From a virus: DNA of 25,062 nt. Position 1 is the stretch's first letter; every line of letters starts with the position of its first letter. The notes below the pieces were generated by a model, which had not been told where the DNA came from, made no database searches, and was given only the letters and a program-made list of their open reading frames with translations. The stretch is from IMG/VR virus record IMGVR_UViG_3300027782_004642, positions 1-25,062 of that record; one strand, 5' to 3'. Positions 193 through 23,272 of the stretch are shown one piece after another. The position numbers were made by a program, and so were the translations under genes.

Positions 193-2238
193 ATGGCAAC
201 AAATAGACTACAAGTTACTGACCTTGATTTTGATACAATCAAGAACAACTTAAAAACATTTTTAAGAAGTCAATCTGAGTTTTCAGACTATGACTTTGAA
301 GGTTCAGGCTTAAGTGTCTTGATGGACCTTTTGGCATATAACACTCATTATAATGCCTACTATCTAAACATGGTTGCTAACGAATCGTTTTTAGACACAG
401 CAGTTCTTCGTAATTCTGTTGTATCACATGCAAAGTTATTAGGATACGTTCCATTGTCCGTTACTGCTTCTAGAGCTTCTATTAACCTGACTATTCCTAG
501 TGGCAATAGCACTCCAGATACATTCACACTTACTAAAGGTTTTAGTTTCAAATCCAACATTATTGATAATAGTGTTTTTAATTTTGTACTTTTGGAAGAT
601 GTTACTGTAAACAAAACTGGTCAAGATTTTATATTCTTAAACTTACCTGTTTATGAAGGCCAGTTGGTAAGTTACGATTTCACGTATAATTTGGATTCCA
701 ATCCAAAAGGTATATTTACAATTCCTGATTTAAATGTTGACACAAAAACTTTAATTGTTTCTGTTCAAGCATCAAGTGCTAATTTAAGCACTCAAATTTA
801 TACCCAATCGACAGATGTATTATCTGCAACAAATGAGTCAGCTGTCTACTTCTTACAAGAAGGTCAAGATGGTAAATTCCAAATTTATTTTGGTAATGGA
901 GTTATTGGTAAAGCTTTGAATGATGGTTGTATTGTCAATTTGGATTACCTTGTAACTTCTGGTGATGCTGCAAACAAGTCATCTTCTTTTGTTGTTAGTA
1001 CACCTATCGCTAACGTTTCAAACTATTTTGTAACGGTTGCTAGTGCAGCAGCTGGAGGAACGCAAAGAGAATCTGCCGATAAAATCAAATTAAATTCTAC
1101 ATTACAGTACACTACTCAAAATAGATTAGTTACAACAAAAGACTATGAATCTTATGTAACAAAAAATTATCCTGCGGTTGAATCAATTTCTGTTTGGGGT
1201 GGAGAAGAAGAAGTGCCGCCAGTTTACGGTAAAGTTTATATCTGTATTAAACCAAAAGATAACTACTATCTTTCAACGGCAGAAAAAGAAAGAATTATTT
1301 CTGAAATCGTTCAACCAAAATCTATCATTTCTATTAAATCTGAAATACGTGATCCGGAATATCTGTATTTAAAATTGGTAAATCTTGTCAAGTACGATAA
1401 AAAGAAAACTTCATTAACAGAAGACCAGATAAAAAATGCTATTAAATCTTCCATCTATCTTTACAATGACCAGTATTTAAACAAGTTTGGTTCAACGTTT
1501 GTTTTGTCTAAAGTACAAGATAATATTGATGGTGTTGATTTGTCTTCTATTATTGGTTCTGAAACATCTCTGCGTTTGGAAAAACGTTTCTTGCCATCGT
1601 TAAGTGAAACAAAAACTTACAACATTAACTTCAACGTACCACTATATCGTGGTACAATTCTGAACCGATTAACTTCTTCAGAGTTTACTATTAATGACAG
1701 TACTGGCATAACAAGAAATGCTATTCTAGAAGAAGTGCCAGAATCATACACAGGTATTTCAGAAATTAGAATTCTAAATGCAGGTTACAAATATACATCA
1801 GCACCAACTGTAACTATTACCGGTGATGGTTATGGCGCTGAAGCTAAAGCAATTATTGTAAATGGAAAAGTTCAGTCTATTGCAATCACAAATCGTGGTA
1901 TCAATTATACCAAAGCCGTTATATCTTTCTCTGGTGGAGATGGATACGGTGCTGAAGCTGTGGCAGTTTTAAATGCACGTTACGGCACTTTAAGAACCGT
2001 TTATTTTAATGCTAATGCTGAACGCCAAATTATTGAATCTAATGCCGGTACTATTGACTATAGTACTGGTGCAATTTCAATCACAAATATTAGATTTTTG
2101 ACAGTCAGTACTTCGGATGGATACATTAGATTGAATATTGAGTCTGAAGATGGTATCATTTCTTCAAATAGAAACACAGTTATTGTTATAGATAAGACCG
2201 ATTCAACTGCAATCATTACAGACTTAATTAGCAATTAA
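193..2238 (+). CDS. 6: Baseplate wedge subunit gp6 (baseplate J-like)
   Basis: 681 residues, close to the 660 of T4 gp6. The N-terminal ~90 residues have the family pattern: a helix running into FEGSGLSVLMDLLAYNTHY, then a NESFLDTAVLR segment and a LLGYVP motif. Residues ~285-355 carry the baseplate-J core, with GGTQRESADKIK, a KDYESYV segment and a VWGGEE loop. gp6 forms the ring that ties the baseplate wedges together and rearranges on contraction. Residues ~522-598 hold two copies of a glycine-rich beta repeat (NAGYKYTSAPTVTITGDGYG, then ITNRGINYTKAVISFSGGDG) that T4 gp6 is not known to have and that recurs in the next three large genes. The start abuts the gene 25 stop with no clear Shine-Dalgarno, so translational coupling is likely. 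Confidence 0.92.
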   Translation: MATNRLQVTDLDFDTIKNNLKTFLRSQSEFSDYDFEGSGLSVLMDLLAYNTHYNAYYLNMVANESFLDTAVLRNSVVSHAKLLGYVPLSVTASRASINLTIPSGNSTPDTFTLTKGFSFKSNIIDNSVFNFVLLEDVTVNKTGQDFIFLNLPVYEGQLVSYDFTYNLDSNPKGIFTIPDLNVDTKTLIVSVQASSANLSTQIYTQSTDVLSATNESAVYFLQEGQDGKFQIYFGNGVIGKALNDGCIVNLDYLVTSGDAANKSSSFVVSTPIANVSNYFVTVASAAAGGTQRESADKIKLNSTLQYTTQNRLVTTKDYESYVTKNYPAVESISVWGGEEEVPPVYGKVYICIKPKDNYYLSTAEKERIISEIVQPKSIISIKSEIRDPEYLYLKLVNLVKYDKKKTSLTEDQIKNAIKSSIYLYNDQYLNKFGSTFVLSKVQDNIDGVDLSSIIGSETSLRLEKRFLPSLSETKTYNINFNVPLYRGTILNRLTSSEFTINDSTGITRNAILEEVPESYTGISEIRILNAGYKYTSAPTVTITGDGYGAEAKAIIVNGKVQSIAITNRGINYTKAVISFSGGDGYGAEAVAVLNARYGTLRTVYFNANAERQIIESNAGTIDYSTGAISITNIRFLTVSTSDGYIRLNIESEDGIISSNRNTVIVIDKTDSTAIITDLISN

Positions 2239-4554: not shown

Positions 4555-6135
4555 ATGCCATCATACTCATACGTAGCTCAAAAATTAAGACACAAAACAG
4601 CCCAAAAATATAAAGAGGCTTTTTCTGCTAACGAAGCTCCATTCATATCATACATCTTTATTGGTGACCATATGCCTTGGGCCAATGATGCAGCACCCGA
4701 CATAATAATAGACACAGTTAGCACAGAAAAATCATTATGGAATAACATGATTGCTGCTAAGAAAATTACTGGCAATGATGTTCAATTAGTTACTGAACGA
4801 GTAAACTGGGTTGCAAATACCGTTTATCAACAATATGATGATACTATTGAGCTTGAAGATTTATTGTATGCTAATAATGCCACAGGTTATGAAGCGATGT
4901 ATGCTATCAATTCTGAGGGTAATGTATACAAGTGTTTGTTTAACAATAATAATGCTCAGTCCACTATTGAGCCATTAGGACAAAACTTAAACAATAATGG
5001 CAATATATTAACCGCAGACTTATATTTGTGGAAATACATGTATAATGTTCAGGCAAATAATAAATTTTTATCCAATATTTGGGTCCCTATTCCTATTACT
5101 GTCTCAACTGTTGAATATGGTGCTAGTGCATTGACAACAATTGATGGTGAATTGACCACTATTGCAATGAAAAATGTCGGTTTAGGTTACATAAACAGCA
5201 CAATTAAGGTTAGTGCTTTTGCTACAGCTTGCACAATTTTAACAGTTAATGCTTCTGTTGATATGGTAAATACAGTTTTTGCTAATATGGCAGTTTCTGG
5301 TACAGGTATCATTGGCGGAACATATATTACTGCTGTAGATCCAATTCTTCGAAAAATAACTCTTGTTTATCCAACTACGGCCGCTGGCGGCGGCACCTCA
5401 AATGCTAACAACATAACAATTTCTACCAGAGTAGTTATTAGAGGTGACGGCGAGGGCGCTCAAGCCTCAGCTAACGTTAGTAATAGTAGAATTAATAAAA
5501 TCACAGTAACGAGTTTTGGTGCAGGATATAGTTATGCAAATGTATTGATTTATGGTACTGCAACTGGCGCTAATGTAGCTAATGCTCGTGCTATTCTTCC
5601 TCCAAAATTTGGCCACGGATTCAATGCGGCTGAAGAATTAGGTGGTCATAATGTTATGATAACCACAAAAATTGGTGATGTTGATACAACTGAGGGTGGA
5701 ATTATTTCTGCCAACACATCATTCCGCCAATACGGTTTACTTAAAAACCCGTATAAATATGGCCAATCAGTAGAAATGAGCTCTGCAAATGCTAATACAG
5801 TTATCTCACAAACAACAGATATATCTTTGATTGCAGGTAGCGCATATACACCTAACGAATTTGTTTATCAAGGTCCTTTATCTAATCCAACATTTAGTGG
5901 TTACGTGAACACACAAGTACCACTTACTGTTAAATTAACAAATGTCAAAGGTGATATTGCAATCGGTTCAGTTCTCAAAGGAACACTAAGTAATCTAACA
6001 GGTAGAACAGTTTTTGGTATTAAATATCCAGAATTTGAACCTTACACTGGCGACATTGAATATGCCGAAAATTTCGCACCAATTGAAAGACAAAATGGCC
6101 AAGCAGAAAATATTAAATTTATCATTAAATTCTAG
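4555..6135 (+). CDS. 8: Baseplate wedge protein gp8 with a repeat-bearing insertion
   Basis: 526 residues against 334 in T4 gp8. The ends match gp8: an N-terminal FISYIFIGDHMPW segment (T4 has IFITFGRSEPW), NVYKCLFNNN (T4 LVYRCL), DLYLWKYMYNV (T4 DGYVWEYLFEI), and a C-terminus with IEYAENFAPI ... ENIKFIIKF that lines up with T4 IYMENRPPI ... EINILFTF. gp8 is a dimeric wedge component bound by gp10, gp7 and gp6. The extra length is in the middle, about residues 180-400, and contains GY repeats (MKNVGLGYINS near 200, VTSFGAGYSYANVLIYG near 315) like those in the neighbouring wedge proteins. No Shine-Dalgarno is visible before the ATG. Confidence 0.85.
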   Translation: MPSYSYVAQKLRHKTAQKYKEAFSANEAPFISYIFIGDHMPWANDAAPDIIIDTVSTEKSLWNNMIAAKKITGNDVQLVTERVNWVANTVYQQYDDTIELEDLLYANNATGYEAMYAINSEGNVYKCLFNNNNAQSTIEPLGQNLNNNGNILTADLYLWKYMYNVQANNKFLSNIWVPIPITVSTVEYGASALTTIDGELTTIAMKNVGLGYINSTIKVSAFATACTILTVNASVDMVNTVFANMAVSGTGIIGGTYITAVDPILRKITLVYPTTAAGGGTSNANNITISTRVVIRGDGEGAQASANVSNSRINKITVTSFGAGYSYANVLIYGTATGANVANARAILPPKFGHGFNAAEELGGHNVMITTKIGDVDTTEGGIISANTSFRQYGLLKNPYKYGQSVEMSSANANTVISQTTDISLIAGSAYTPNEFVYQGPLSNPTFSGYVNTQVPLTVKLTNVKGDIAIGSVLKGTLSNLTGRTVFGIKYPEFEPYTGDIEYAENFAPIERQNGQAENIKFIIKF

Positions 6136-12102: not shown

Positions 12103-12339
12103 ATGGACACAGTACAAGTAACCGATTCAACTTTTGTGAGAGATATTCATTCTAAGGCTATTCTAAATACAGATAGAAAGGGCCTAAATGAATATCTTAT
12201 GAAAAAAGAAATTGCAAAAAAACAAAACGTTGAGGCCGAAGAAACGAAAAACCGATTGACGGCAATAGAACAAGATATGCAAGACATTAAACGATTGCTT
12301 GTAGAACTAAATTCGATGAGAACAATAAATGGCAATTAA
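12103..12339 (+). CDS. Small coiled-coil protein of the baseplate operon
   Basis: 78 residues; the ATG at 12103 is one base after the preceding stop. An upstream in-frame start at 12082 would overlap the end of the large gene and is less likely. The protein has a short N-terminal segment (VTDSTFVRDIHSKAILNTD) followed by a charged, predicted coiled coil from about residue 25 (EYLMKKEIAKKQN, then TAIEQDMQDIKRLLVEL). Small proteins of this layout recur between wedge and fibre genes in marine T4-like phages, but I know no assigned function. Its end overlaps the next gene by 11 bases, which suggests coupling. A fibre attachment or assembly role is only a guess from position. Confidence 0.65.
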   Translation: MDTVQVTDSTFVRDIHSKAILNTDRKGLNEYLMKKEIAKKQNVEAEETKNRLTAIEQDMQDIKRLLVELNSMRTINGN

Positions 12340-13417
12340 TCAATTAAGTACCTCAAACACATTCCAGCAATGGTTAAGTGCTACTCAAGTTTTGATTGAA
12401 AAATCAAATTACTTTGAGGGCGTTTCTAATGCTGTTTTTTCTACTGCTAATACGGTCTATCAAACTGCAAATAATGTTTCTAATACAGCTAATGCTTTTT
12501 ACATATACAATACAATAGCATATGCACAATCTAACGTTTCTTTTAACGTAGCAAATCAAGTTTACATAATTGCTAACAATGCTGCAAACACAGCTAATTT
12601 AGCCTTTGTATATTCAAATAATTCATATACTTCTGCAAATTTATCATTTATCTATTCAGCTTCTGCTTCAAATACTGCTAATGCCGCATACGCTGTTGTT
12701 AATACAGCTTTTACTTCTGCTAATGCTGCGTTTAATCATGCAAATAATGCTTTTGTTTATGCTAATTCGGCTTTCACAACATCCAATCTAGCATACACAT
12801 ATTCAAACGTAGCAGTTGCAAACGTTAATAGTGCTGCAGCTAACGCATTAGCAGTTGTTCAATCAGCAAATGCAACGATTAACGCAGCAACAATACTGAT
12901 TCAAAGTTCATACAATTCAGCTAATTTGTTTTTAGGCTACATTGCCAATAATTCAAATTTGGCTCTACTAACGAATGATGTGGATACTGATAATAATTTA
13001 AGATACATCTTATTTACCGATACTGTTCCACTTTCAAATAATGGTGTTCTAACACAAACTTTTGTTTCAAATACAAAACTATATTATAATCCTTTATCTG
13101 GACAATTAAACGCTTCAAATTTCAACTCTCTTTCTGATGAGAGATTTAAAAAAGATGTTATCTATATTGAAGATGCTGTTGCAACATTGAAGAATATTGA
13201 TGGTGTTAAATTTGCATGGATAGAAAATGATAACCATTCATATGGTGTTATTGCTCAACAACTCGAAAAAATATTGCCGGAGTTGGTAAATGGGACAGAA
13301 CAAAAGACTGTCAATTACTCAGGTTTAATAGCTTTCTTGATAAATGCGGTAAAAGAATTGGACACTCGTGTTTTAGAGCTAGAAAAGATTATAAATAACA
13401 AGAACGCCGAGTTCTAA
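12329..13417 (+). CDS. Tail fibre with heptad stalk and C-terminal S74 intramolecular chaperone
   Basis: 362 residues. Residues 34-194 are 23 consecutive heptads in one register, 19 starting with Asn and usually carrying Phe or Tyr at the fourth place (NLAFVYS, NNSYTSA, NTAFTSA, NAAFNHA). This fits a thin trimeric coiled-coil stalk. The C-terminal ~95 residues are a peptidase S74 (endosialidase-type) chaperone: LSDERFKKDV gives the Ser268/Lys273 dyad with the five-residue spacing of the family, followed by the GVIAQQLEKILPELV and NYSGLIAFLINAVKEL helices. In known members the domain trimerises the fibre, then cuts itself off before the serine. The mature fibre would end near residue 267 with a small beta head (~200-267). 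The start overlaps the previous gene. Confidence 0.88.
   Translation: MAINQLSTSNTFQQWLSATQVLIEKSNYFEGVSNAVFSTANTVYQTANNVSNTANAFYIYNTIAYAQSNVSFNVANQVYIIANNAANTANLAFVYSNNSYTSANLSFIYSASASNTANAAYAVVNTAFTSANAAFNHANNAFVYANSAFTTSNLAYTYSNVAVANVNSAAANALAVVQSANATINAATILIQSSYNSANLFLGYIANNSNLALLTNDVDTDNNLRYILFTDTVPLSNNGVLTQTFVSNTKLYYNPLSGQLNASNFNSLSDERFKKDVIYIEDAVATLKNIDGVKFAWIENDNHSYGVIAQQLEKILPELVNGTEQKTVNYSGLIAFLINAVKELDTRVLELEKIINNKNAEF
13390..13397 (+). promoter_or_regulatory. T4-type late promoter TATAAATA before the small fibre genes
   Basis: An exact TATAAATA lies in the last codons of the S74 fibre gene, 32 bases before the next ATG at 13430. Initiation a few bases downstream would give a leader that contains the GGGAGCG ribosome site at about 13420. 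This spacing is typical of T4-like late genes, and it would let the adhesin module be transcribed independently of the baseplate operon. Confidence 0.5.
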
Positions 13418-14776: not shown

Positions 14777-15955
14777 ATGTCTAGATATTTAAAAACAGCT
14801 ACAGCTGCGGTTTATAGAAACAAGAAAACATATCTTGTTGCTGGAAATTATACATTCTCCGTGCCTTTTACTTCTAATGAAGTGAAGGTTATGGTTTTTG
14901 GCGGCGGTGGCAACGCTTGTTTTACATGTATTAACGCAGCAGGTAGTGCTTACAATTGTGGTTTTGTTCTGGGTGCTGCAAGTGGGCCAGGCGGTGGATT
15001 CTCAGAAAAACTTTATACCGGTGTTGCAGGATCTTCAGCTTGTATCGTTTTAGGTTCGGCTACTTCCAACTCAAGTTTTTGCATTTCTGGCGCTGGCACG
15101 GTTGCTGCCACAGGCGGCCGCCTTCTAGGTGGAAATGGCACGCCTTGGTGTCATTGTTATGGAATAGGATCCGGAGGTGACATTAATCGTTGTGGATCAG
15201 CAGGCCAAACTCAATGTTTGTGTTATGCCATTTCATGTAGTGCCCCAAATGTTTGTTGTTATGTGACCGTTGGAGCATTGATTGGTGGCGGAAGTCCAGG
15301 TAACTCGGTTAATAACGGTATTGTAGATACTCTAAGTACCGGCTCTCAATCGACAAATTGTGTTATATTCCAGTGTACTACCGGAAATTATTATGGATAC
15401 GGATGTTGCAAATGTTGTAGTGTCAGATATTGGAGCCAAAATGCAGGTTTTACTAGAGGATATGGATGTTGTCCAGTTTCTTCTGCCACATATTACGGCT
15501 TTGATTGGGACGTTGTAGGTGGTGACTCATGTGCTACATCCAATTTTACACTTCCCTCAGGATGTGCGTTTTGTTCAGTACCTTGTAATACGGATCCAGC
15601 ATATTGTGGTTGCTATTGTTGTGCATCAGGTCCTGGCGGCGGATGTTACGGTACACCTTGTTGCGGAGGCTCAATGCCTGGTTACATTGGTGATTCTTGC
15701 TGCTACTTTATTTTTACTCAACGATTACTTCAATGTGTGTGTGGATCATTAGGCGGCCAAGCTGGTGTAACTGGTTCTGGTGGTCCAGGTGCCGCAGGCG
15801 GTGTAGGCGGAGGCGGAGGCGGAGTATTTTTAAATCCAGCTCTGCCTTCAGGATGTGCTCATTGGCAGGCACCGTGCATTGTTACTCCAGGCTCCCACCC
15901 TGCAGGATGTTGCCTTGCTACTGGCGGCAATGGACTTGTTATTGTTTACTATTAA
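14777..15955 (+). CDS. Glycine- and cysteine-rich adhesin-like protein (40 Cys in 392 residues)
   Basis: The first ~45 residues are a conventional beta segment (TYLVAGNYTFSVPF, then NEVKVMVFGGGG) with no cysteine. From Cys48 onward I count 40 cysteines, including eight CC pairs and clusters such as GYGCCKCCS and YCGCYCCASG, mixed with glycine tracts (GSGGPGAAGGVGGGGGG). The end, GGNGLVIVYY, is the usual closing strand of glycine-rich phage adhesins. Their best-known analogue is the T2-type gp38 receptor-binding tip, with variable loops between polyglycine helices. A GAGGAA RBS and clean ends argue against a frame error. The cysteines could form disulfides after release, bind metal or form a cross-linked tip. 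A receptor-binding role is inferred from layout and location. Confidence 0.7.
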   Translation: MSRYLKTATAAVYRNKKTYLVAGNYTFSVPFTSNEVKVMVFGGGGNACFTCINAAGSAYNCGFVLGAASGPGGGFSEKLYTGVAGSSACIVLGSATSNSSFCISGAGTVAATGGRLLGGNGTPWCHCYGIGSGGDINRCGSAGQTQCLCYAISCSAPNVCCYVTVGALIGGGSPGNSVNNGIVDTLSTGSQSTNCVIFQCTTGNYYGYGCCKCCSVRYWSQNAGFTRGYGCCPVSSATYYGFDWDVVGGDSCATSNFTLPSGCAFCSVPCNTDPAYCGCYCCASGPGGGCYGTPCCGGSMPGYIGDSCCYFIFTQRLLQCVCGSLGGQAGVTGSGGPGAAGGVGGGGGGVFLNPALPSGCAHWQAPCIVTPGSHPAGCCLATGGNGLVIVYY

Positions 15956-15969
15956 AAAAGGACAAAAAA

Positions 15970-16251
15970 ATGACTAAAGAAGAACTACAAGGAAAAATTT
16001 CAGAAGCTGAATCAAGAATTACTGCTTATAATGCTTTTCTTGAAATTTTAACAACTAAATTGGAAAAAGTAAACGCTGGACAACCAGTGACTTTTAGGCC
16101 AGAAGCTCCAATTAATGAAGCTTCAACAAAGGAAGAAAAGGTAACTCATCTTGAAACGTCTATCAAAAACCATCAAGATGCGATAACTCACGAACAACAA
16201 GTTATTACTGATTGTACAACTGAGTTACGTAAACGAGATCCTGGCGTTTAA
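15970..16251 (+). CDS. Small coiled-coil protein after the adhesin
   Basis: 93 residues, starting at 15970 behind an AAAGGAC Shine-Dalgarno. A longer in-frame reading exists upstream but runs antagonistically through the adhesin gene and is rejected. Two helical stretches (residues ~1-34, KISEAESRITAYNAFLEILT; and ~58-90, with VTHLETSIKNHQDAITHEQQ) flank a proline-containing hinge (QPVTFRPEAP). This hairpin layout and the position just after an adhesin suggest a fibre-assembly chaperone, like T4 gene 38 or Tfa proteins, but there is no motif match. It is the last gene before the accessory cassette. Confidence 0.55.
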   Translation: MTKEELQGKISEAESRITAYNAFLEILTTKLEKVNAGQPVTFRPEAPINEASTKEEKVTHLETSIKNHQDAITHEQQVITDCTTELRKRDPGV

Positions 16252-16275: not shown

Positions 16276-17070
16276 ATGATTGAAACAAATATAGCATTAC
16301 TCACAGGAATGCCTAGAAGTGGAACGACTTACCTTCAGAAACTTCTAGGCACCAATCCTTCAATTAAAACAGACACAAGAACTTGTCATATACCTGAATA
16401 TATTTCAGGTCTTAAAAAAGTTTTTGAGCCCGGTCAAGATGCTTCTTCCACTACGATAGAACAAACACAAAAAGAATTTGAAACTTTTGTGAAGGGTGGA
16501 ATTTTAGCTAATTGCCAAGAAGAAAAAATAAACCTTTTTAAATCAAGATATTATTTAATACATTTTAATTTAATTAAAGAATTGTTTAAAGACACAAAAT
16601 ATATTTTTGTAGCTCGAGATTTAAAGGATATTGTTTTATCAATATATCATTCAACAAAAAAATACAATTATAGAGAAGGTTATGATGGGTTAACTAAACG
16701 AGATGCCATTGGTTGCGTTTTAAATAATTCTTTTTTATCACAATCTTTAAAATTATTACCTTACACTTTTGATATTATAAATGATAATACAGATAATTTT
16801 TTGACTTTAAAATATGAAGATTTATGCCTACAAACAGAAGATAGTTTAAATAACATTTCACAATTTTTAAATGTAAAAAACGAATACAATTTTGATTTAT
16901 TGGACACTAAAAATTACCACATAGATACCTTCTATAAACATACAGTATCACATGAGGTTACTGACAAAAATATATGTTTTAAACAATATGAACAAAATGA
17001 ATTTACAAAAGAACTTGATTTTAATTTGAGAAAAATGTTTCCTGATTACTATAGTTTTTTTAAATATTGA
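16276..17070 (+). CDS. PAPS-dependent sulfotransferase
   Basis: 264 residues. Sulfotransferases move sulfate from PAPS to a hydroxyl or amine on a sugar, lipid, peptide or small molecule. The 5'-phosphosulfate loop is at residues 11-20 (GMPRSGTTYL). The 3'-phosphate motif is at 114-125 (RDLKDIVLSIYH, with Arg114 and Ser122). The common YEDL helix follows at 180-183 before SLNNISQFLNV. The C-terminus FPDYYSFFKY fits the usual end. All cofactor motifs are intact, so activity is likely; the substrate is unknown. AAAGGGA at about 16250 is rather distant as an RBS. A competing ATG at 16271 runs into a stop after two codons. The gene is very AT-rich (10 G+C in the line 16741-16800), unlike the structural genes, which suggests recent acquisition. 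Confidence 0.85.
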   Translation: MIETNIALLTGMPRSGTTYLQKLLGTNPSIKTDTRTCHIPEYISGLKKVFEPGQDASSTTIEQTQKEFETFVKGGILANCQEEKINLFKSRYYLIHFNLIKELFKDTKYIFVARDLKDIVLSIYHSTKKYNYREGYDGLTKRDAIGCVLNNSFLSQSLKLLPYTFDIINDNTDNFLTLKYEDLCLQTEDSLNNISQFLNVKNEYNFDLLDTKNYHIDTFYKHTVSHEVTDKNICFKQYEQNEFTKELDFNLRKMFPDYYSFFKY

Positions 17071-17077
17071 GGATAAA

Positions 17078-18394
17078 ATGAACGATACCGAAGAAAAAAT
17101 TACCAAACATTTATTTTTATTAAGTCCAAATAATTGTGGATCTTCTTACATAAATGAATGTTTTAAAAATTCAAAAGATATTGCTGCGCTTGAAAATGAA
17201 GGACAAGATGAATCTTATTTTTTTGGGAAAAAAACAGCAGATTTTGAAGAAAATATATCTTTCATCTTTACAAAAAAAGCAAGAGATTTTGAAGATGATG
17301 ATTACGTTCAATGGGTAAGAACTGAAGCTGCGTGGACCGAAAAATGGGAATTAGTTAATCCAAATGCTCAATGGAGATTTCAAAAAAGTCCTCCTGATAT
17401 TTTAAGGCCACATATATTACTTGACGTTTTTGTTAATCTTTCCTTTTTAATAATGGCAAGAAACCCATATGCTATGGCCGAAAGTATTATCAGGTCTAAT
17501 CCTACAGCTACTTTAGAAGATATTGCTAACCATTGCATAGACTGTTTAATAGCTCAAAGAAAAAATAACTACTTGATGGGTAATAATTTCTGTTTCACAT
17601 ATGAAGATATGTGTGACCGGCCAGAATGGGTTGAAAAGAACATTAAAGAAAAATATAATATTGAAGACTTTTCTTTAACGTTACCTAAAAAACATAAAAT
17701 TAAAAACAAATATGATAGTATTCTTGTTAATAAAAATGAAGAACAAATTAACAGATTGAAAAAACATCAAATTGAATTTTTAAATTCCGTATTTAAAAAA
17801 TATATGGACACTATGGATTATTGGGGCTATACACTTTTGGATGAAAAAGAAAGTGGTTTTTATGTTAATCAAATTTTAGAAATTGATAACTCAAAATTAA
17901 AAGAAAAAGTTTTATCTATTGAAGATTCTTATTGGTCCAAACAAACTGATAGACAAGAATATTTTGTAGAGCATGATAAAACAGAATCTATAATTCTGTT
18001 TAGTAAGCCAGAAGGCACAGAAGATCCAATTTATGGAAAAGAACAAATTGTTGATAAAGAATTGATGCTTTTGTTTAAAGAAGATTTCTCAGATTTATTC
18101 ATTAAATTAAAAACTCACTTTTTTAATTCTGGTGAAATTGGAAGAATTTTGTTGGCAAAATTAAAACCAAACTGTACAATACCTCCACACCAAGACCACG
18201 GTCCTCATTTGGAAAAATGTAGAAGATTACACATTCCGCTAATCACAAATGATAATGTTGATTTTATTGTGGATGATAAGTCACACAATCTAAAAGAAGG
18301 ATTTGTGTATGAATTTGATAACACTAGAACTCATCATGTTACAAACAATTCAGATGAGGAAAGAATTCATTTGATTGTTGATTGGATATACTAA
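17078..18394 (+). CDS. Fusion: sulfotransferase-like domain plus aspartyl/asparaginyl beta-hydroxylase domain
   Basis: 438 residues. Residues ~10-260 follow a sulfotransferase fold: a degenerate loop LSPNNCGSSYI (15-25), a KSPPDILRP segment, a 3'-phosphate motif ARNPYAMAESIIR with Arg128 and Ser136 at the canonical spacing, and YEDM at 175-178. Residues ~270-438 look like an Asp_Arg_Hydrox (PF05118-type) 2-oxoglutarate/Fe(II) domain: HQD at 371-373 supplies His and Asp, THHVTNN provides the distal His (419) and Asn, and Arg429 in ERIHLIVDW would bind 2-oxoglutarate. Known relatives hydroxylate Asp, Asn or related side chains. GAGGATAA is a good RBS. The two domains may act in turn on one substrate. 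The loop lacks the usual PRSGTT, so sulfotransfer is less certain than hydroxylation. Confidence 0.75.
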   Translation: MNDTEEKITKHLFLLSPNNCGSSYINECFKNSKDIAALENEGQDESYFFGKKTADFEENISFIFTKKARDFEDDDYVQWVRTEAAWTEKWELVNPNAQWRFQKSPPDILRPHILLDVFVNLSFLIMARNPYAMAESIIRSNPTATLEDIANHCIDCLIAQRKNNYLMGNNFCFTYEDMCDRPEWVEKNIKEKYNIEDFSLTLPKKHKIKNKYDSILVNKNEEQINRLKKHQIEFLNSVFKKYMDTMDYWGYTLLDEKESGFYVNQILEIDNSKLKEKVLSIEDSYWSKQTDRQEYFVEHDKTESIILFSKPEGTEDPIYGKEQIVDKELMLLFKEDFSDLFIKLKTHFFNSGEIGRILLAKLKPNCTIPPHQDHGPHLEKCRRLHIPLITNDNVDFIVDDKSHNLKEGFVYEFDNTRTHHVTNNSDEERIHLIVDWIY

Positions 18395-19038
18395 TGTCTG
18401 ATTTTAAAATTCATAAAAATTTTGTTGAGGAAGAACATTGCCTTTCTTTTTTGAAAGACGTTGAAGAAAACCTTCATAATTTTATTGAAAATACTAATGG
18501 TCCTTTCAGAAAATTTTTAAGATTGGATAATACTCCTATTTTTAATGAGTTACATAATTTATATTTGAATAAAATCGTTGATGTTTTAGGATTGAATAAC
18601 GTTACAATTGATCCTATGCTTGGAATATTATACAGTAATATTTCAAAAGGCGGATTCATACACCTTCATATAGATTCGTATCCTCCTTACAACACCAAAG
18701 AATATGTTAATTACAGATTTAATTTGATGCTAAATAGAGGTACAGGTGAAGAATATAATCCAATAGTGGAAAATGTTGATTATCAGGTAAATGCTGGAGA
18801 TGCTTGGTCATTTTCAGCTTCCTCATATGAACATGAGACTAAACCTTTATGTGAAGACACACCTAGAATTGTATTACAATATGGTTTTATGTTGAACAAA
18901 CAACAATATGAAAATCTTAGTGGTATCAACCTTACTGATAGAATGAAAGAATATTATGCAAAAAATTCTCGTAATGGGATTGCCAGGAGCCGGAAAGACT
19001 TTTTTAGCCAAAGCGCTGAAATCTTACCTGGAATCTAA
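18394..19038 (+). CDS. 2-oxoglutarate/Fe(II)-dependent oxygenase
   Basis: 214 residues from the ATG at 18394, which shares one base with the preceding TAA. An in-frame TTG at 18382 is possible but less likely. The double-stranded beta-helix core shows HLHID with the HxD pair His92/Asp94, a distal His147 in SYEHETKP, and Arg158 in TPRIVLQYGF. These complete a 2-His-1-Asp iron site plus the 2-oxoglutarate arginine. The core resembles the short oxygenases common in marine myoviruses, where substrates are mostly unknown. After GFMLNKQQ there is a ~40-residue tail. Its last 27 residues lie in the 83-base overlap with the next gene and read as basic filler (SRNGIARSRKDFF), so the natural C-terminus may have been altered at this junction. 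Confidence 0.8.
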   Translation: MSDFKIHKNFVEEEHCLSFLKDVEENLHNFIENTNGPFRKFLRLDNTPIFNELHNLYLNKIVDVLGLNNVTIDPMLGILYSNISKGGFIHLHIDSYPPYNTKEYVNYRFNLMLNRGTGEEYNPIVENVDYQVNAGDAWSFSASSYEHETKPLCEDTPRIVLQYGFMLNKQQYENLSGINLTDRMKEYYAKNSRNGIARSRKDFFSQSAEILPGI

Positions 19039-19807
19039 CTCAAACGTACACAACATGCCATTGCACAGAATGGCTGAACATGAAATGATGCCATTTTCTT
19101 GGCAAGCTAAAGTTGATTGGTTCAACGCAGATGAAATAAGAAAACGATTCAATGATTGGGATTTCAGTAAAGAAGGACGTATTCGTCAGTCTTTGCGAAT
19201 GGCGGAGTTTGCATTTAAAAGTACTGGTGATTTTGTCATCTGTGATTTTGTTGCACCATTACCTGAGATGAGACATAACTTCAAAGCTGATTGGGTTATT
19301 TGGGTAGACACGATTGAAGCTGGTCGATATGAAGACACCAATAAAGCATTTGTTCCTCCTGATGTGTATGATTTCAGAGTGACAGAACAGAACGCTGAAA
19401 AATGGGCTGAGTTTATTGGCCACCACATTTTAGAAAACAAACGTAGGCCGGTGTTCAATTGGCAAAAAGAAACGGTACAAATGCTAGGCCGTTGGCAACC
19501 ATGGCATGAAGGTCATCGTAAGTTGTTTGAACGTGCTATTGCTAAAACTGGTCAAGTGGTTATTCAAATTAGAGACTGCCAAGGTTGGCAAGGAAGCAAT
19601 CCATTTGCCATTGAGCAAGTTAAGAATTTTATCAAGCGAGATTTAGAGCCTATATATCAGGGACAGTTTGAAATACAAGTTGTACCAAATGTGGTAAACA
19701 TTACATATGGTCGTGACGTTGGATACAAAATTGAACAGGAAGTTTTTGATGAGGCAACACACAGTATAAGTGCCACTAAAATCAGAAAACAAATGGGAAT
19801 TGAGTGA
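18956..19807 (+). CDS. Bifunctional APS-kinase-like P-loop kinase / HxGH nucleotidyltransferase
   Basis: 283 residues. The N-terminal half is P-loop kinase-like: Walker A GLPGAGKT at 8-15, then WFNADEIRKRFNDWDFS and R-rich helix QSLRMAEFA, a layout closest to adenylylsulfate (APS) kinase. Its lid region (FVAPLPEMR) is only loosely like the APS-kinase FISP motif. The C-terminal half is a short nucleotidyltransferase: GRWQPWHEGHRKLF with HEGH at 184-187, and SISATKIRK at 271-278, as in cytidylyl- and adenylyltransferases. Such fusions occur in T4-like marine phages. The substrate is uncertain: PAPS supply for the adjacent sulfotransferases, or activation of a sugar or polyol phosphate. The gene is clearly richer in G+C than the three before it (30 of 60 in the line 19441-19500). 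Confidence 0.78.
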   Translation: MQKILVMGLPGAGKTFLAKALKSYLESNSNVHNMPLHRMAEHEMMPFSWQAKVDWFNADEIRKRFNDWDFSKEGRIRQSLRMAEFAFKSTGDFVICDFVAPLPEMRHNFKADWVIWVDTIEAGRYEDTNKAFVPPDVYDFRVTEQNAEKWAEFIGHHILENKRRPVFNWQKETVQMLGRWQPWHEGHRKLFERAIAKTGQVVIQIRDCQGWQGSNPFAIEQVKNFIKRDLEPIYQGQFEIQVVPNVVNITYGRDVGYKIEQEVFDEATHSISATKIRKQMGIE

Positions 19808-20011: not shown

Positions 20012-20944
20012 ATGACATATACAGTCTTTCATATTGATGGTGGTGCCGGCAGAGTAATTGCTGCTATACCCGCACTAATCAAATATAACAAATTAAATCC
20101 GGACGACAATTTTAAAATCTTAGTCCATGGTTGGGATACTTTACTTTGGGGCATTCCAGAATTGCAAGATAGGGTTTTTAATCCTGATAATAAGGGTACC
20201 TTCGAAAATATTGTTTATGGATGTTCCAGAATAGTAGCTCCAGAACCTTATAGAGAACCTGCCTACTTTAAACAACAGATTTCTTTAGTGCAAGCTTTTG
20301 ATGCTTGTATCAATAATACAACCGACCATAGTGATTTAGGACCACCTAGAATGGTTTTGAACAAACTGGAAGAAAAATACGCAGCTAATATTATTGAAGA
20401 TGTTAAGAACCAGCAGAAAAAGAATATTACCGTAGTTATTCAACCATATGGTCGTGGTGCTAAAATAGATAGAGGCCATTTGATTGATGATGCCTCAAGG
20501 TCATTGGACGTTTCTGCGTATTTACTGTTAATTAAAAAACTATCCGTAAAATATAATTTAATTTATTTTGGTGATAAAGAAATGGCAGTAAATGAAGATA
20601 CTTACACTTTAAAGGTACAAGCCGATTTGAGAGGTTGGGCATCAATTATTGAATCTGCTGATTATTTTGTTGGATGTGATTCTGTTGGCCAACATATGGC
20701 TCGAGCATTTGATAAACCAGGAACAGTAATTTTTGGTTCAACTTTTCCAGTTAACACTTCTTATCCGGAGCATTTTCAGATTATTGAAAAAGAAGGAAAT
20801 AAGAAGTACTCTCCTATTAGAATAACGAATCTAGACTGCCATTTGGCGGATAGGTATAATGATAAACTTATGGAATTTTCTGAAGAAGAAATACATGAAA
20901 TTTTTATGCAAATTGTTAAAGATATTGAAAAGAAGGTAAAGTGA
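20012..20944 (+). CDS. GT9-like glycosyltransferase (heptosyltransferase fold)
   Basis: 310 residues with two Rossmann-like halves, as in GT-B enzymes. The N-terminus FHIDGGAGRVIAAIPALIKY parallels the glycine loop of ADP-heptose:LPS heptosyltransferases. The C-terminal donor half has ADYFVGCDSVGQHMARAFDK followed by PGTVIFGST, matching the family's D-S-G-x-x-H-L-A pattern with Asp223, Ser224 and His228. The glycine after Asp-Ser is replaced by Val-Gly, a minor change. Members transfer heptose or other sugars to cell-surface glycans in the cytoplasm. AAGGAATAT is a good RBS. With the nucleotidyltransferase upstream and carbamoyltransferase downstream it suggests surface-glycan or virion-glycan modification; donor and acceptor are unknown. 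Confidence 0.75.
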   Translation: MTYTVFHIDGGAGRVIAAIPALIKYNKLNPDDNFKILVHGWDTLLWGIPELQDRVFNPDNKGTFENIVYGCSRIVAPEPYREPAYFKQQISLVQAFDACINNTTDHSDLGPPRMVLNKLEEKYAANIIEDVKNQQKKNITVVIQPYGRGAKIDRGHLIDDASRSLDVSAYLLLIKKLSVKYNLIYFGDKEMAVNEDTYTLKVQADLRGWASIIESADYFVGCDSVGQHMARAFDKPGTVIFGSTFPVNTSYPEHFQIIEKEGNKKYSPIRITNLDCHLADRYNDKLMEFSEEEIHEIFMQIVKDIEKKVK

Positions 20945-22641
20945 TGAGTTTAAATATATTAGCCGTTAATCCTGGCCACAATGGTTCTGCTGCATTGGTA
21001 TCGGATGGAAAATTAATTTCCTATATTGAAGAAGAAAGGTTGACCCGTGAAAAATATGATGGCAATCCTTTTATGGGTATGTTGCATATTATGAAAGAAC
21101 ATCCTATTGATATTTTAGTTATTGGTGGAGTTTCAATACATAATTTAGGAAGTTTGCCATGGACTGGTGAAAATGCTTATGAAGCTTTAGTTAGAAAGCA
21201 TTATCCCAAAGCTAAAATTATTAAAGCATCCGATAACCATCACATGGGCCATGTTGGATGTACATTCTACAATTCAGGTTTTGATGAAGCTATCGTAATC
21301 GTTATTGATGGTTCTGGTAGTTTTAGTAGTCATACTATGTCTAATGGTCAAACAGCTATGGGTTGGGAAACTGATACTGCTTTCGTTTGTAAATATCCAG
21401 ACGATTACACTTTGTTGTTCAAGAGATATGGAAATGAGTCTACTGCTCAATATAGTGATGGTGTGCATGAATTTGACGATTCTGTTCCTACAGTAAAAGC
21501 TTATGAAGGTGTTTCAAATTACCTTGGATTTGAATACATCGAAGGCGGCAAAACAATGGGATTAGCTCCTTATGGAAAAGAAGATCCAAATATTCCAGAA
21601 CTTCTTATTAATTCTAGAGGAAATAAGAATGTTTTCCGACCACATTTTCCTGCTGGTTCAATCATAGACCAATTTAAAAATCCATATCTAAGACAGAAAG
21701 ATAACCCAAAAGAATGGCATAGAGACTTCAGTAAATGTCCTGATGTTGCTAAAAATTTGGCTTATAAGATGCAAAAACAAAGCCAACAGGCTGTTTTGGA
21801 TTTGATTAAAACAACTATCGAAAAAACTGGAATTAAAAATGTTTGTATTGCTGGTGGTTATGGTTTAAATTGTACAGCAAACTATTTCTATAGAAAGAAT
21901 TTGCCTGCTGACGTACAACTTTTTTGCGATCCGGTTTCACATGATGGAGGCACATCTATTGGTCTGGCAAAAATTGTATGGTATCAAGAGACTAAATCAA
22001 CAGATAAGTTTCCTTTAGATACTGTTTATTTGGGACCAAAGTATGATCCTGAAACCTACTTGAGTGATGTGGATACTGAAAAATTTGATGTTGTAGAAAC
22101 AACCGCAAAAGATGTGGCTAAACTAATTTCAGAAAGAAATATTGTTTCTATCTTCCAAGGTTGTAGTGAAGCTGGTCCACGAGCTTTAGGAAACAGGTCT
22201 ATTCTTTATGACCCAACTGACCCGAACGGCAAAGATTATGTCAATATCGTAAAAGGTCGTGAGTGGTTTAGGCCTTTTGCCGGAACAATCCTAAAAGAAC
22301 ATGCAAACGAATGGTTTGATATGGCTGGTATGGAAGAATCGCCTTATATGATGTATGCTATTGACGTTCAATCTGACAAGCAACATATTATTCCATCCAT
22401 TAACCACGTTGATGACACATGTAGAATTCAAACTGTCACAAAAGAACAGAATAAACACTACTATGAATTGATTACTGAGTTTAAAGAAATCTCTGGAGTC
22501 CCTATTCTGTTTAATACATCTTTCAACTTAGCAGGTGATCCTTTAGTTGAAACGATAAAAGACGCCTTAGAAACATTAGAGAAATCGGAAATGAAGTACT
22601 TGTACTTGCCAGAAATCTCAAAGTTGTTGATTAAGAAATAA
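20944..22641 (+). CDS. Carbamoyltransferase, NodU/CmcH family
   Basis: 565 residues from the ATG at 20944, which shares one base with the preceding TGA. GAAGG at about 20931 fits this start better than the GTG at 20941. Members use carbamoyl phosphate and ATP to make a carbamoyl-adenylate and then carbamoylate a hydroxyl, for example on Nod factors, antibiotics or sugars. The Kae1-like N-terminal domain has NPGHNGSAALV near the start, the metal-binding DNHHMGH at 97-103, VIDGSG and GGKTMGLAPYG. The C-terminal domain has FQGCSEAGPRALGNRSIL at 404-421, GREWFRPFAGTIL and NTSFNLAGDP. All key motifs are intact and length is normal. It is last in the + strand cassette before a hairpin terminator. 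The likely acceptor is the product of the adjacent glycosyltransferase. Confidence 0.9.
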   Translation: MSLNILAVNPGHNGSAALVSDGKLISYIEEERLTREKYDGNPFMGMLHIMKEHPIDILVIGGVSIHNLGSLPWTGENAYEALVRKHYPKAKIIKASDNHHMGHVGCTFYNSGFDEAIVIVIDGSGSFSSHTMSNGQTAMGWETDTAFVCKYPDDYTLLFKRYGNESTAQYSDGVHEFDDSVPTVKAYEGVSNYLGFEYIEGGKTMGLAPYGKEDPNIPELLINSRGNKNVFRPHFPAGSIIDQFKNPYLRQKDNPKEWHRDFSKCPDVAKNLAYKMQKQSQQAVLDLIKTTIEKTGIKNVCIAGGYGLNCTANYFYRKNLPADVQLFCDPVSHDGGTSIGLAKIVWYQETKSTDKFPLDTVYLGPKYDPETYLSDVDTEKFDVVETTAKDVAKLISERNIVSIFQGCSEAGPRALGNRSILYDPTDPNGKDYVNIVKGREWFRPFAGTILKEHANEWFDMAGMEESPYMMYAIDVQSDKQHIIPSINHVDDTCRIQTVTKEQNKHYYELITEFKEISGVPILFNTSFNLAGDPLVETIKDALETLEKSEMKYLYLPEISKLLIKK

Positions 22642-22667
22642 AAATAAGGGGCTTGTCCCCTTATTTT
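22641..22667. terminator. Bidirectional intrinsic terminator between convergent genes
   Basis: A perfect 11-bp stem (AAAATAAGGGG / CCCCTTATTTT) with loop CTTGT. It begins at the last base of the carbamoyltransferase stop, and its right arm contains the stop codon of the opposite-strand HAD-fold gene. Each strand ends in a T-rich tract, so it can stop transcription from both sides. Confidence 0.85.
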
Positions 22668-23272
22668 AATGAGTTTGCAAATTCAAGTAGATTAGAAAAC
22701 TCTCTAGTCTTTTCTTTAAGTTTCCTATTGGCAAAAGTATTCAATTTGTCTTTAGTCTCATTGTACATGCCCTGCTTTAACAGTATGGGTTTACAATGAA
22801 CGGAGTCTCCCACTTTCAAGTCGTGGAGTTTATCTCCAACAAAATAACCACCTTTAAATTTCAATCTTAAATCGTTTTCGGCCTTTTTTAACATGCCATT
22901 GTTTGGCATAGAATAAAGGTCTTCTTTTAGATTTGATGTTGAATAGAATAAGCCCGTAATGGATTGTATTCCATGATTACCAAAAGCATCAAGCATTATT
23001 TTATTTGATTGTTCTACTTTTTCTATAGTTATTTTGTTTTGTGTAATATCTGGTTCATTGAAAAAGATAACAACATTGTATCCTTTTAACCTCATTATTT
23101 TTATGGCTTCCAAAGATTCGGGTATAAATCTCATAAATAAGTCAGAAGGTGTATTTTGGTTTTCTATAATTACACCATTTCTTTCTATTCCTATAGTCTC
23201 TTTGGTAAAAGTTGTTGGCCAAAGCGGCAGGTCAATCGTTGAAAAAGAATTTTTTGAAGAAAATCTTCCCAT
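22661..23272 (-). CDS. HAD-fold protein related to GmhB-type phosphatases, catalytic residues lost
   Basis: 203 residues on the minus strand, ATG at 23272-23270 with GGAG eight bases upstream. It aligns by eye with D,D-heptose bisphosphate phosphatase (GmhB): IGIERNGVII matches IFLDRDGTIN, NEPDITQNKIT matches NQSGIARGKFT, PNNGMLKKAENDL matches PHPGMLLSARDYL, and GGYFVGDKLHDLKVG matches the GDK-x2-D metal motif. The DxD nucleophile pair is Glu30/Asn32. The motif II Thr is Phe71, and the motif III Arg-Lys is Ser121/Met122. The zinc-binding cysteines are absent. Only Asp147 and Asp151 remain, so phosphatase activity is unlikely. It may be a scaffold or regulatory protein, or use different chemistry. 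It is the only minus-strand gene here. Its strand, and the location after a heptosyltransferase-like operon, are notable. Confidence 0.7.
   Translation of the reverse strand: MGRFSSKNSFSTIDLPLWPTTFTKETIGIERNGVIIENQNTPSDLFMRFIPESLEAIKIMRLKGYNVVIFFNEPDITQNKITIEKVEQSNKIMLDAFGNHGIQSITGLFYSTSNLKEDLYSMPNNGMLKKAENDLRLKFKGGYFVGDKLHDLKVGDSVHCKPILLKQGMYNETKDKLNTFANRKLKEKTREFSNLLEFANSLK

Follow-up and report, generated by a model that had tools for sequence, protein, structure and literature searches.

A cysteine-loaded, glycine-rich putative phage tail adhesin and its GT9-like partner gene

Introduction

BAHT autotransporter heptosyltransferases (TibC/AAH) are dedicated enzymes that place many heptoses, derived from ADP-heptose, on exposed sites of an autotransporter adhesin in the cytoplasm (PMC4358343). 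Their acceptor residue is serine, and they contain a Cys4 iron finger. S-linked sugars on cysteine are a known bacterial modification, as seen in the glycocins (PMC9877059), in which sublancin-type S-glycosyltransferases modify few sites in small peptides. Among phage proteins, the gp24 fibre of cyanophage Pam3 (PDB 7YPX), which is made of TNF-like and glycine-rich domains, provides a glycine-rich receptor-binding tip; the Pam3 paper does not mention cysteines or disulfides. In Agrobacterium phage Milano, virion proteins are enriched in cysteine, and intersubunit disulfides form a network in the tail sheath and baseplate (PMC10811340). Here, we analyse a 25,062-base T4-like tail region (the window) of a marine bacterial virus, which encodes a glycine-rich putative adhesin with 10% cysteine, compared with 2.1% in the structural proteins of Milano.

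Layout of the locus

The order of the genes is gp6-like, gp8-like, a large protein of 1985 aa, an S74-chaperone fibre, small genes, the cysteine-rich ORF, sulfotransferases, a GT9-like gene and a carbamoyltransferase (Table 1). The closest relatives of the gp6-like protein are found in Pelagibacter phage HTVC008M and in Methylophilales phages (Kyanoviridae). The cysteine-rich ORF lies within a tail-fibre operon, 3' of the gp6, gp8 and S74 fibre genes, and occupies a slot that is homologous in cyanophages. Its product is probably a phage tail adhesin, which would reside in the virion and bind a receptor.

Table 1 Features of the window, with positions counted from its first base.
Feature	Position	Strand	Evidence or remark
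gp6-like	193-2238		
gp8-like	4555-6135		
S74-chaperone fibre	12329-13417		
Small beta-rich conserved protein, 107 aa	14450..14773	+	Marker of the adhesin slot
Cysteine-rich (40 Cys), glycine-rich putative receptor-binding adhesin, 392 aa	14777..15955	+	ORF and homologues
Cysteine-bearing part of the adhesin, residues 48-379	14918..15913	+	Low pLDDT over most of its length
Coiled-coil protein, 93 aa, immediately 3' of the adhesin	15970..16251	+	Possibly a fibre chaperone
Sulfotransferase	16276..17070	+	PF00685 E 1.3e-15
Sulfotransferase-like domain fused to Asp/Asn beta-hydroxylase	17078..18394	+	PF05118 E 1e-15
P-loop kinase and adenylyl/cytidylyltransferase-like protein	18956..19807	+	88-89% identical in L096/L097
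GT9-like glycosyltransferase, heptosyltransferase superfamily	20012..20944	+	PF01075 22.1 bits (cut-off 22)
Carbamoyltransferase, NodU/CmcH type	20941..22641	+	PF16861 E 1.2e-59, PF02543 E 1e-22; usually directly 3' of GT9
GmhB-like heptose-1,7-bisphosphate phosphatase (HAD)	22661..23272	-	NCBIfam NF006506 E 1.8e-17, 63.5 bits (under cut-off 178)

The cysteine-rich ORF and its relatives

The ORF runs from ATG to TAA and encodes 77 glycine and 40 cysteine residues, the first cysteine being residue 48; eight CC pairs are present, and TGT and TGC codons occur in a 32:8 ratio. Cysteine accounts for 0-1.9% of residues in the remaining genes of the window and for 0-0.8% in those read as structural, in agreement with an earlier note, made from the sequence alone, that had singled out the 40 cysteines, the eight CC pairs and the cysteine-poor neighbours. 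The cysteine content of 930 ORFs is strongly bimodal, falling either at 0-3% or at 6-13%, and not one of 648 genes from 80 unrelated T4-like tail-region loci is cysteine-rich (at least 6% Cys and at least 10 Cys). Because homologues from independent contigs are read in the same frame, the cysteine richness is neither chance nor artefact, and a sequencing error, which the note had named as fatal to its reading, is ruled out. Cysteine codons are moreover under purifying selection while synonymous change is normal; no point in favour of a sequencing or frame artefact was found, and the chance of one is practically nil.

Direct homology searches, with the whole protein in annotated phages and with its peptides in viral contigs, returned nothing because of low complexity and divergence, and no relative was found in Pfam, PHROG or PDB. 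Homologues were reached instead by synteny, through the 107-aa upstream neighbour. Relatives of this gene are found in S-CAM1, S-CAM3, P-SSM2, P-SSM5 and single-cell phage contigs, and most have one to three cysteine-rich proteins directly downstream. A scan with the family yielded 80 contigs, 64 of which carry a cysteine-rich ORF in the slot. The window protein has true homologues (31-44% identity) in L096 (44%), L097 (38%), L103 and L117 (31-32%), each directly 3' of the same 107-aa gene, and in L177. All start with MSRYLK, and 9 of the 40 cysteines are invariant in five homologues. L167, L119 and L126 encode more distant relatives, and the slot occupant of AG-345-P14, which has 26 cysteines, bears no detectable similarity to the window protein.

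In P-SSM2, S-CAM1, S-CAM3, S-SSM7 and many contigs, the same slot is filled by glycine-rich proteins with 8-13% cysteine. These proteins (for instance PSSM2_304 and PSSM2_306) resemble the window protein in composition and operon position, and GT9 and carbamoyltransferase genes lie downstream. They differ from it in that two to three tandem copies are often present, and they do not align with it end to end. Since a profile search with the cyanophage family was not significant for the window protein (hhalign probability 1.6%), the two are tied by slot and composition, not by sequence. The tandem paralogues, two or three per phage (L010:8708-11526, L011:8703-11503, L012:8613-11479), are possibly subunits of one hetero-oligomeric tip. 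In AG-345-O18, a 758-residue protein with 73 cysteines (L182:10016-12292) starts with MASGRLG and ends with NVQVWGFEGS, and both termini recall those of the 107-aa family; it looks as if a cysteine-rich part had been inserted into the slot marker. The window ORF belongs to a large set of cysteine-studded tail proteins, which were nowhere described in the literature searched (few subscription journals were covered).

Fold of the putative adhesin

For the window protein, AlphaFold2 gave a model with a mean pLDDT of 39.6 and no significant match; it is reliable only at about residues 12-44, 72-114 and the C-terminus, and is too poor for loops to be located. The N-terminal strands and the GGNGLVIVYY end, which had been likened to a normal adhesin, correspond to the only confidently modelled parts. 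The model of a relative, built from 84 aligned sequences, reaches a pLDDT of 75.7. In the PDB, this model is most similar to the fibre of cyanophage Pam3 and the tail tip of Bxb1, and more weakly to the glycine-rich domain of ALK/LTK. The best match, Pam3 gp24 (7YPX), was found with a Foldseek E of 8.9e-4 and low TM-scores (0.36/0.43). Among its matches in viruses are S-CAM3 and P-SSM2, Gp38 of Syn9 and many "glycine-rich domain" proteins. The Pfam family Gly_rich_2 (PF21722) is represented among occupants of the slot. The cysteine-poor L142 and L100 proteins pass its cut-off, and 4 of 10 cysteine-rich relatives match it (best E 4.3e-10); in contrast, the window protein fails to match even at E<=1. 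The glycine-rich, adhesin-like architecture proposed in the earlier note is supported by same-slot relatives and by the resemblance of one relative's model to the Pam3 fibre.

A GT9-like gene accompanies cysteine-rich tail proteins

Comparison of neighbourhoods revealed that a GT9-like gene and a carbamoyltransferase accompany cysteine-loaded slots and are absent from cysteine-poor ones. In whole records, GT9 is present in 39/39 with a cysteine-loaded slot (4.8-13% Cys; 36 records at 6.8% or more, and 3 at 4.8-4.9%, just under the 5% class cut) and in 0/11 with a cysteine-poor one; the naive Fisher probability, 1/C(50,11) or about 3e-11, is optimistic, as many records share ancestry. Carbamoyltransferases are found in 9/9 cysteine-loaded and 0/11 cysteine-poor records.

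The association also holds when loci are selected by the enzyme. All cyanophage GT9 records examined (GT9 37-55% identity) encode cysteine-rich proteins. AG-345-O18, chosen by GT9 alone, features two such proteins (73 and 31 Cys) immediately upstream, neither of which is glycine-rich. In Vibrio D505, K479 and SBP1 and in Aeromonas HJ05, genes for more distant GT9s (26-28%) lie directly next to those for tail-type proteins, whose cysteines (39-41 and 23) are located in helix-like repeats or in the C-terminal region; PF01075 scores are 25.4 bits for SBP1, 24.5 for D505 and 16.8, under the cut-off, for HJ05. Among viral contigs, a gene with at least 6% cysteine is present in 54/80 loci selected by GT9 only, compared with 0/80 control loci selected by gp6 (the 648 genes mentioned above). 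The other 26 GT9 loci lack a cysteine-rich gene within 6 kb, and several of them start at a contig end. Together with representatives of the earlier set, the cysteine-rich proteins of GT9 loci (86 in total) form 32 BLAST clusters, ranging from 149 to 1985 aa and carrying up to 148 cysteines; clusters are called unrelated when sequence similarity goes undetected, and some glycine-rich ones may be distant kin. The GT9-like gene is shown to be a constant genomic partner of cysteine-rich tail proteins across unrelated sequence families. This tie is strong, and our limited literature searches turned up no description of it.

Cellular genome contigs yielded nothing with the HJ05 GT9 as query. A search with a GT9 alignment (A9) retrieved two MAG contigs, both of which have an adjacent cysteine-rich ORF. 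In a Woesearchaeota MAG contig (L350:6043-7818), a 591-aa protein with 52 cysteines and a Tat-like N-terminus (KREFIKKGLLAIGLGGAAALL) is encoded directly upstream of GT9 and carbamoyltransferase genes. This locus may represent a cellular copy of the module, as opposed to a phage one, or else a mis-binned contig.

GT9 enzymes usually act on LPS, and further sugar genes are found in the same operons. The enzyme pair might accordingly modify a host or phage glycan, which the cysteine-rich adhesin would recognise, or with which it would merely be co-inherited in a tail-fibre cassette. We hold this to be improbable, as the tie between cysteines and GT9 persists over T4-like phages, Schitoviridae, Aeromonas phages and unrelated proteins while other cassette content changes, and glycine-rich proteins of the same slot that lack GT9 remain cysteine-poor.

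Evolution and pairing of the cysteines

The earlier note had asked whether the cysteine positions are conserved, and they strongly are. In 76 independent close pairs, cysteine is the least mutable residue (0.15x the mean; glycine and tryptophan 0.37). As the synonymous rate is ordinary, each cysteine site must be under strong selection. Across long distances, cysteine positions turn over (retention 0.53). Residues replacing cysteine are enriched in His (2.8x), Arg, Gln, Asp, Glu and Tyr. Because these are polar surface types, the cysteines may well occupy exposed positions. Exposure is shown in one repeat fibre, a 1985-aa protein with an S74 domain, about 75-80 17-residue NNxAIGxxAL repeats and 100 cysteines (L239:2-5959), in which cysteines are found at variable positions of the repeat only, and at none of the conserved ones. 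A glycosylation sequon was looked for around the cysteines and none was found.

The main rival of S-glycosylation is a disulfide-hardened adhesin, in which thiols kept reduced in the cytoplasm would cross-link in oxic seawater and stiffen hypervariable loops within or between trimer subunits. Unprotected thiols at such density should oxidise in seawater. The low mutability of cysteine and the enrichment of CC (1.67x) suit this explanation, and the Milano tail and baseplate provide a real precedent. Pairing, however, left no trace. Co-change of cysteines was seen in 0/1485 column pairs at p<1e-3, a test with limited power in gappy loops. Exactly one cysteine differs in 16/76 close pairs; counts follow no even-number rule (even in 64/120 and in 20/31), and their variance, 14.3, fits independent sites (15.2 expected). 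The L239 fibre likewise shows no ladder pairing from repeat to repeat (8 seen, 9.5 expected). Disulfides leave unexplained the tie to GT9 as well as cysteines in helix-like tracts such as AACVCACAYADG. These results count against disulfides, although gappy loops restrict how much the tests can detect; we consider the disulfide explanation unlikely, and rank independent modification of the cysteines above a disulfide switch. Of the interpretation given in the earlier note, the adhesin-like architecture is supported, while locking by disulfides is so far unsupported.

A thiolate adhesin binding Zn, Cu or Fe, which might for example exploit metal-uptake receptors, would fit the enrichment of CC and CxC (1.21x) and the preference for histidine among replacements. 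CxxC is not enriched (1.01x), Arg, Gln and Tyr also replace cysteine, sites are scattered in repeat fibres and a link to GT9 would not be expected, which makes metal binding very improbable.

Enzymes and possible sugar donor

The window GT9-like protein just passes the PF01075 cut-off and falls far below that of the LPS heptosyltransferase equivalog TIGR02201 (22.5 vs 170.2 bits). Compared with BAHT enzymes, it is smaller, its putative acceptor is cysteine rather than serine, and its sequence contains no CxxC motif that could correspond to the iron finger. It also differs from glycocin S-glycosyltransferases in matching GT9. The downstream gene product is a member of the NodU/CmcH carbamoyltransferases by both Pfam domains. 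The GmhB-like phosphatase of the window, together with HldE-I, HldE-II and HldD homologues in L014 (AG-345-P14), suggests that ADP-heptose may be the donor. In P-SSM2, PSSM2_311 (L012:15664-16008) is annotated as a phosphoheptose isomerase; its profile match, below cut-off, is the capsule-biosynthesis HAD phosphatase EcbF/BcbF.

Proposed function

Abundant cysteines and GT9 are constant while the protein varies, so the simplest account is that the thiols are the acceptor. As tail proteins of many unrelated shapes adjoin one sugar-attaching enzyme, the cysteines are probably sugar-attachment sites rather than simple disulfides. We propose, with a probability of about 0.5 and a chemistry that is hypothetical, that the window protein is a tail-fibre-tip adhesin whose cysteines are individually S-glycosylated in the cytoplasm. 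Built on a glycine-rich scaffold, it would be one of a wider class of cysteine-loaded phage tail proteins, and its cysteines, mostly in loops, would be used one by one as acceptor sites. Inside the reducing host cytoplasm, the dedicated GT9-like enzyme would put a sugar, most likely heptose from ADP-heptose, on the thiols, and the carbamoyltransferase would then carbamoylate the thiol-bound sugar. The outcome would be a densely S-glycosylated, oxidation-proof receptor-binding tip. Such a scheme would resemble the heptosylation of autotransporter adhesins by BAHT enzymes, with cysteine taking the role of serine. We infer the enzyme-substrate relation, the identity of the sugar and the S-linkage, as well as the location in the virion and receptor binding. 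Several points weigh against S-glycosylation. Known S-glycosyltransferases target one or two cysteines of small peptides, the GT9 match is marginal and far under heptosyltransferase equivalog cut-offs, both enzymes could act on host glycans or on other residues, shared ancestry and the 26 GT9 loci without a nearby cysteine-rich gene weaken the association, and the enrichment of CC and CxC also suits disulfides or metal.

More tentatively, cysteine hyper-S-glycosylation may occur in many tailed phages, and perhaps in some DPANN archaea, on unrelated fibres that bear dozens and up to about 150 exposed cysteines, a dedicated GT9-like enzyme capping each of them with a carbamoylated heptose. If so, host recognition would be shaped by a hitherto unknown kind of protein glycosylation, with sugars on cysteine sulfur at the receptor-binding tips of phages abundant in sea and fresh water; a modification so far seen mainly in a handful of small bacteriocins would be used at as many as about 150 sites in one protein. 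This would also explain a compositional class of hypothetical proteins in the well-studied cyanophages P-SSM2, S-SSM7 and S-CAM1/3, would give the heptose and carbamoyltransferase genes linked to tail genes a function, and would open the glycosylation of fibres to testing. Even if the thiols were disulfide-linked, the exclusive tie of cysteine-loaded fibres to one glycosyltransferase would still call for explanation.

Accessory genes

Downstream of the adhesin, the region 16276-19807 encodes two sulfotransferase-type proteins, another protein and the P-loop/nucleotidyltransferase protein; these might modify the adhesin further, by Tyr sulfation and Asp hydroxylation. The stand-alone sulfotransferase is found alongside window-like adhesins only, and the fusion to beta-hydroxylase occurs in all of the window-like loci (5/5) but in none of the cysteine-poor ones (0/11). 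No homologue of the 93-aa coiled-coil protein was retrieved by blastp. Proteins of 158-170 aa take its place in L096 (7410-7922) and L177 (3939-4415), and the small post-adhesin protein may be a fibre chaperone of the Pam3 gp25/Tfa type. It consists of an N-terminal domain and a coiled C-terminus in L096 and L177, and of the coil only in the window.
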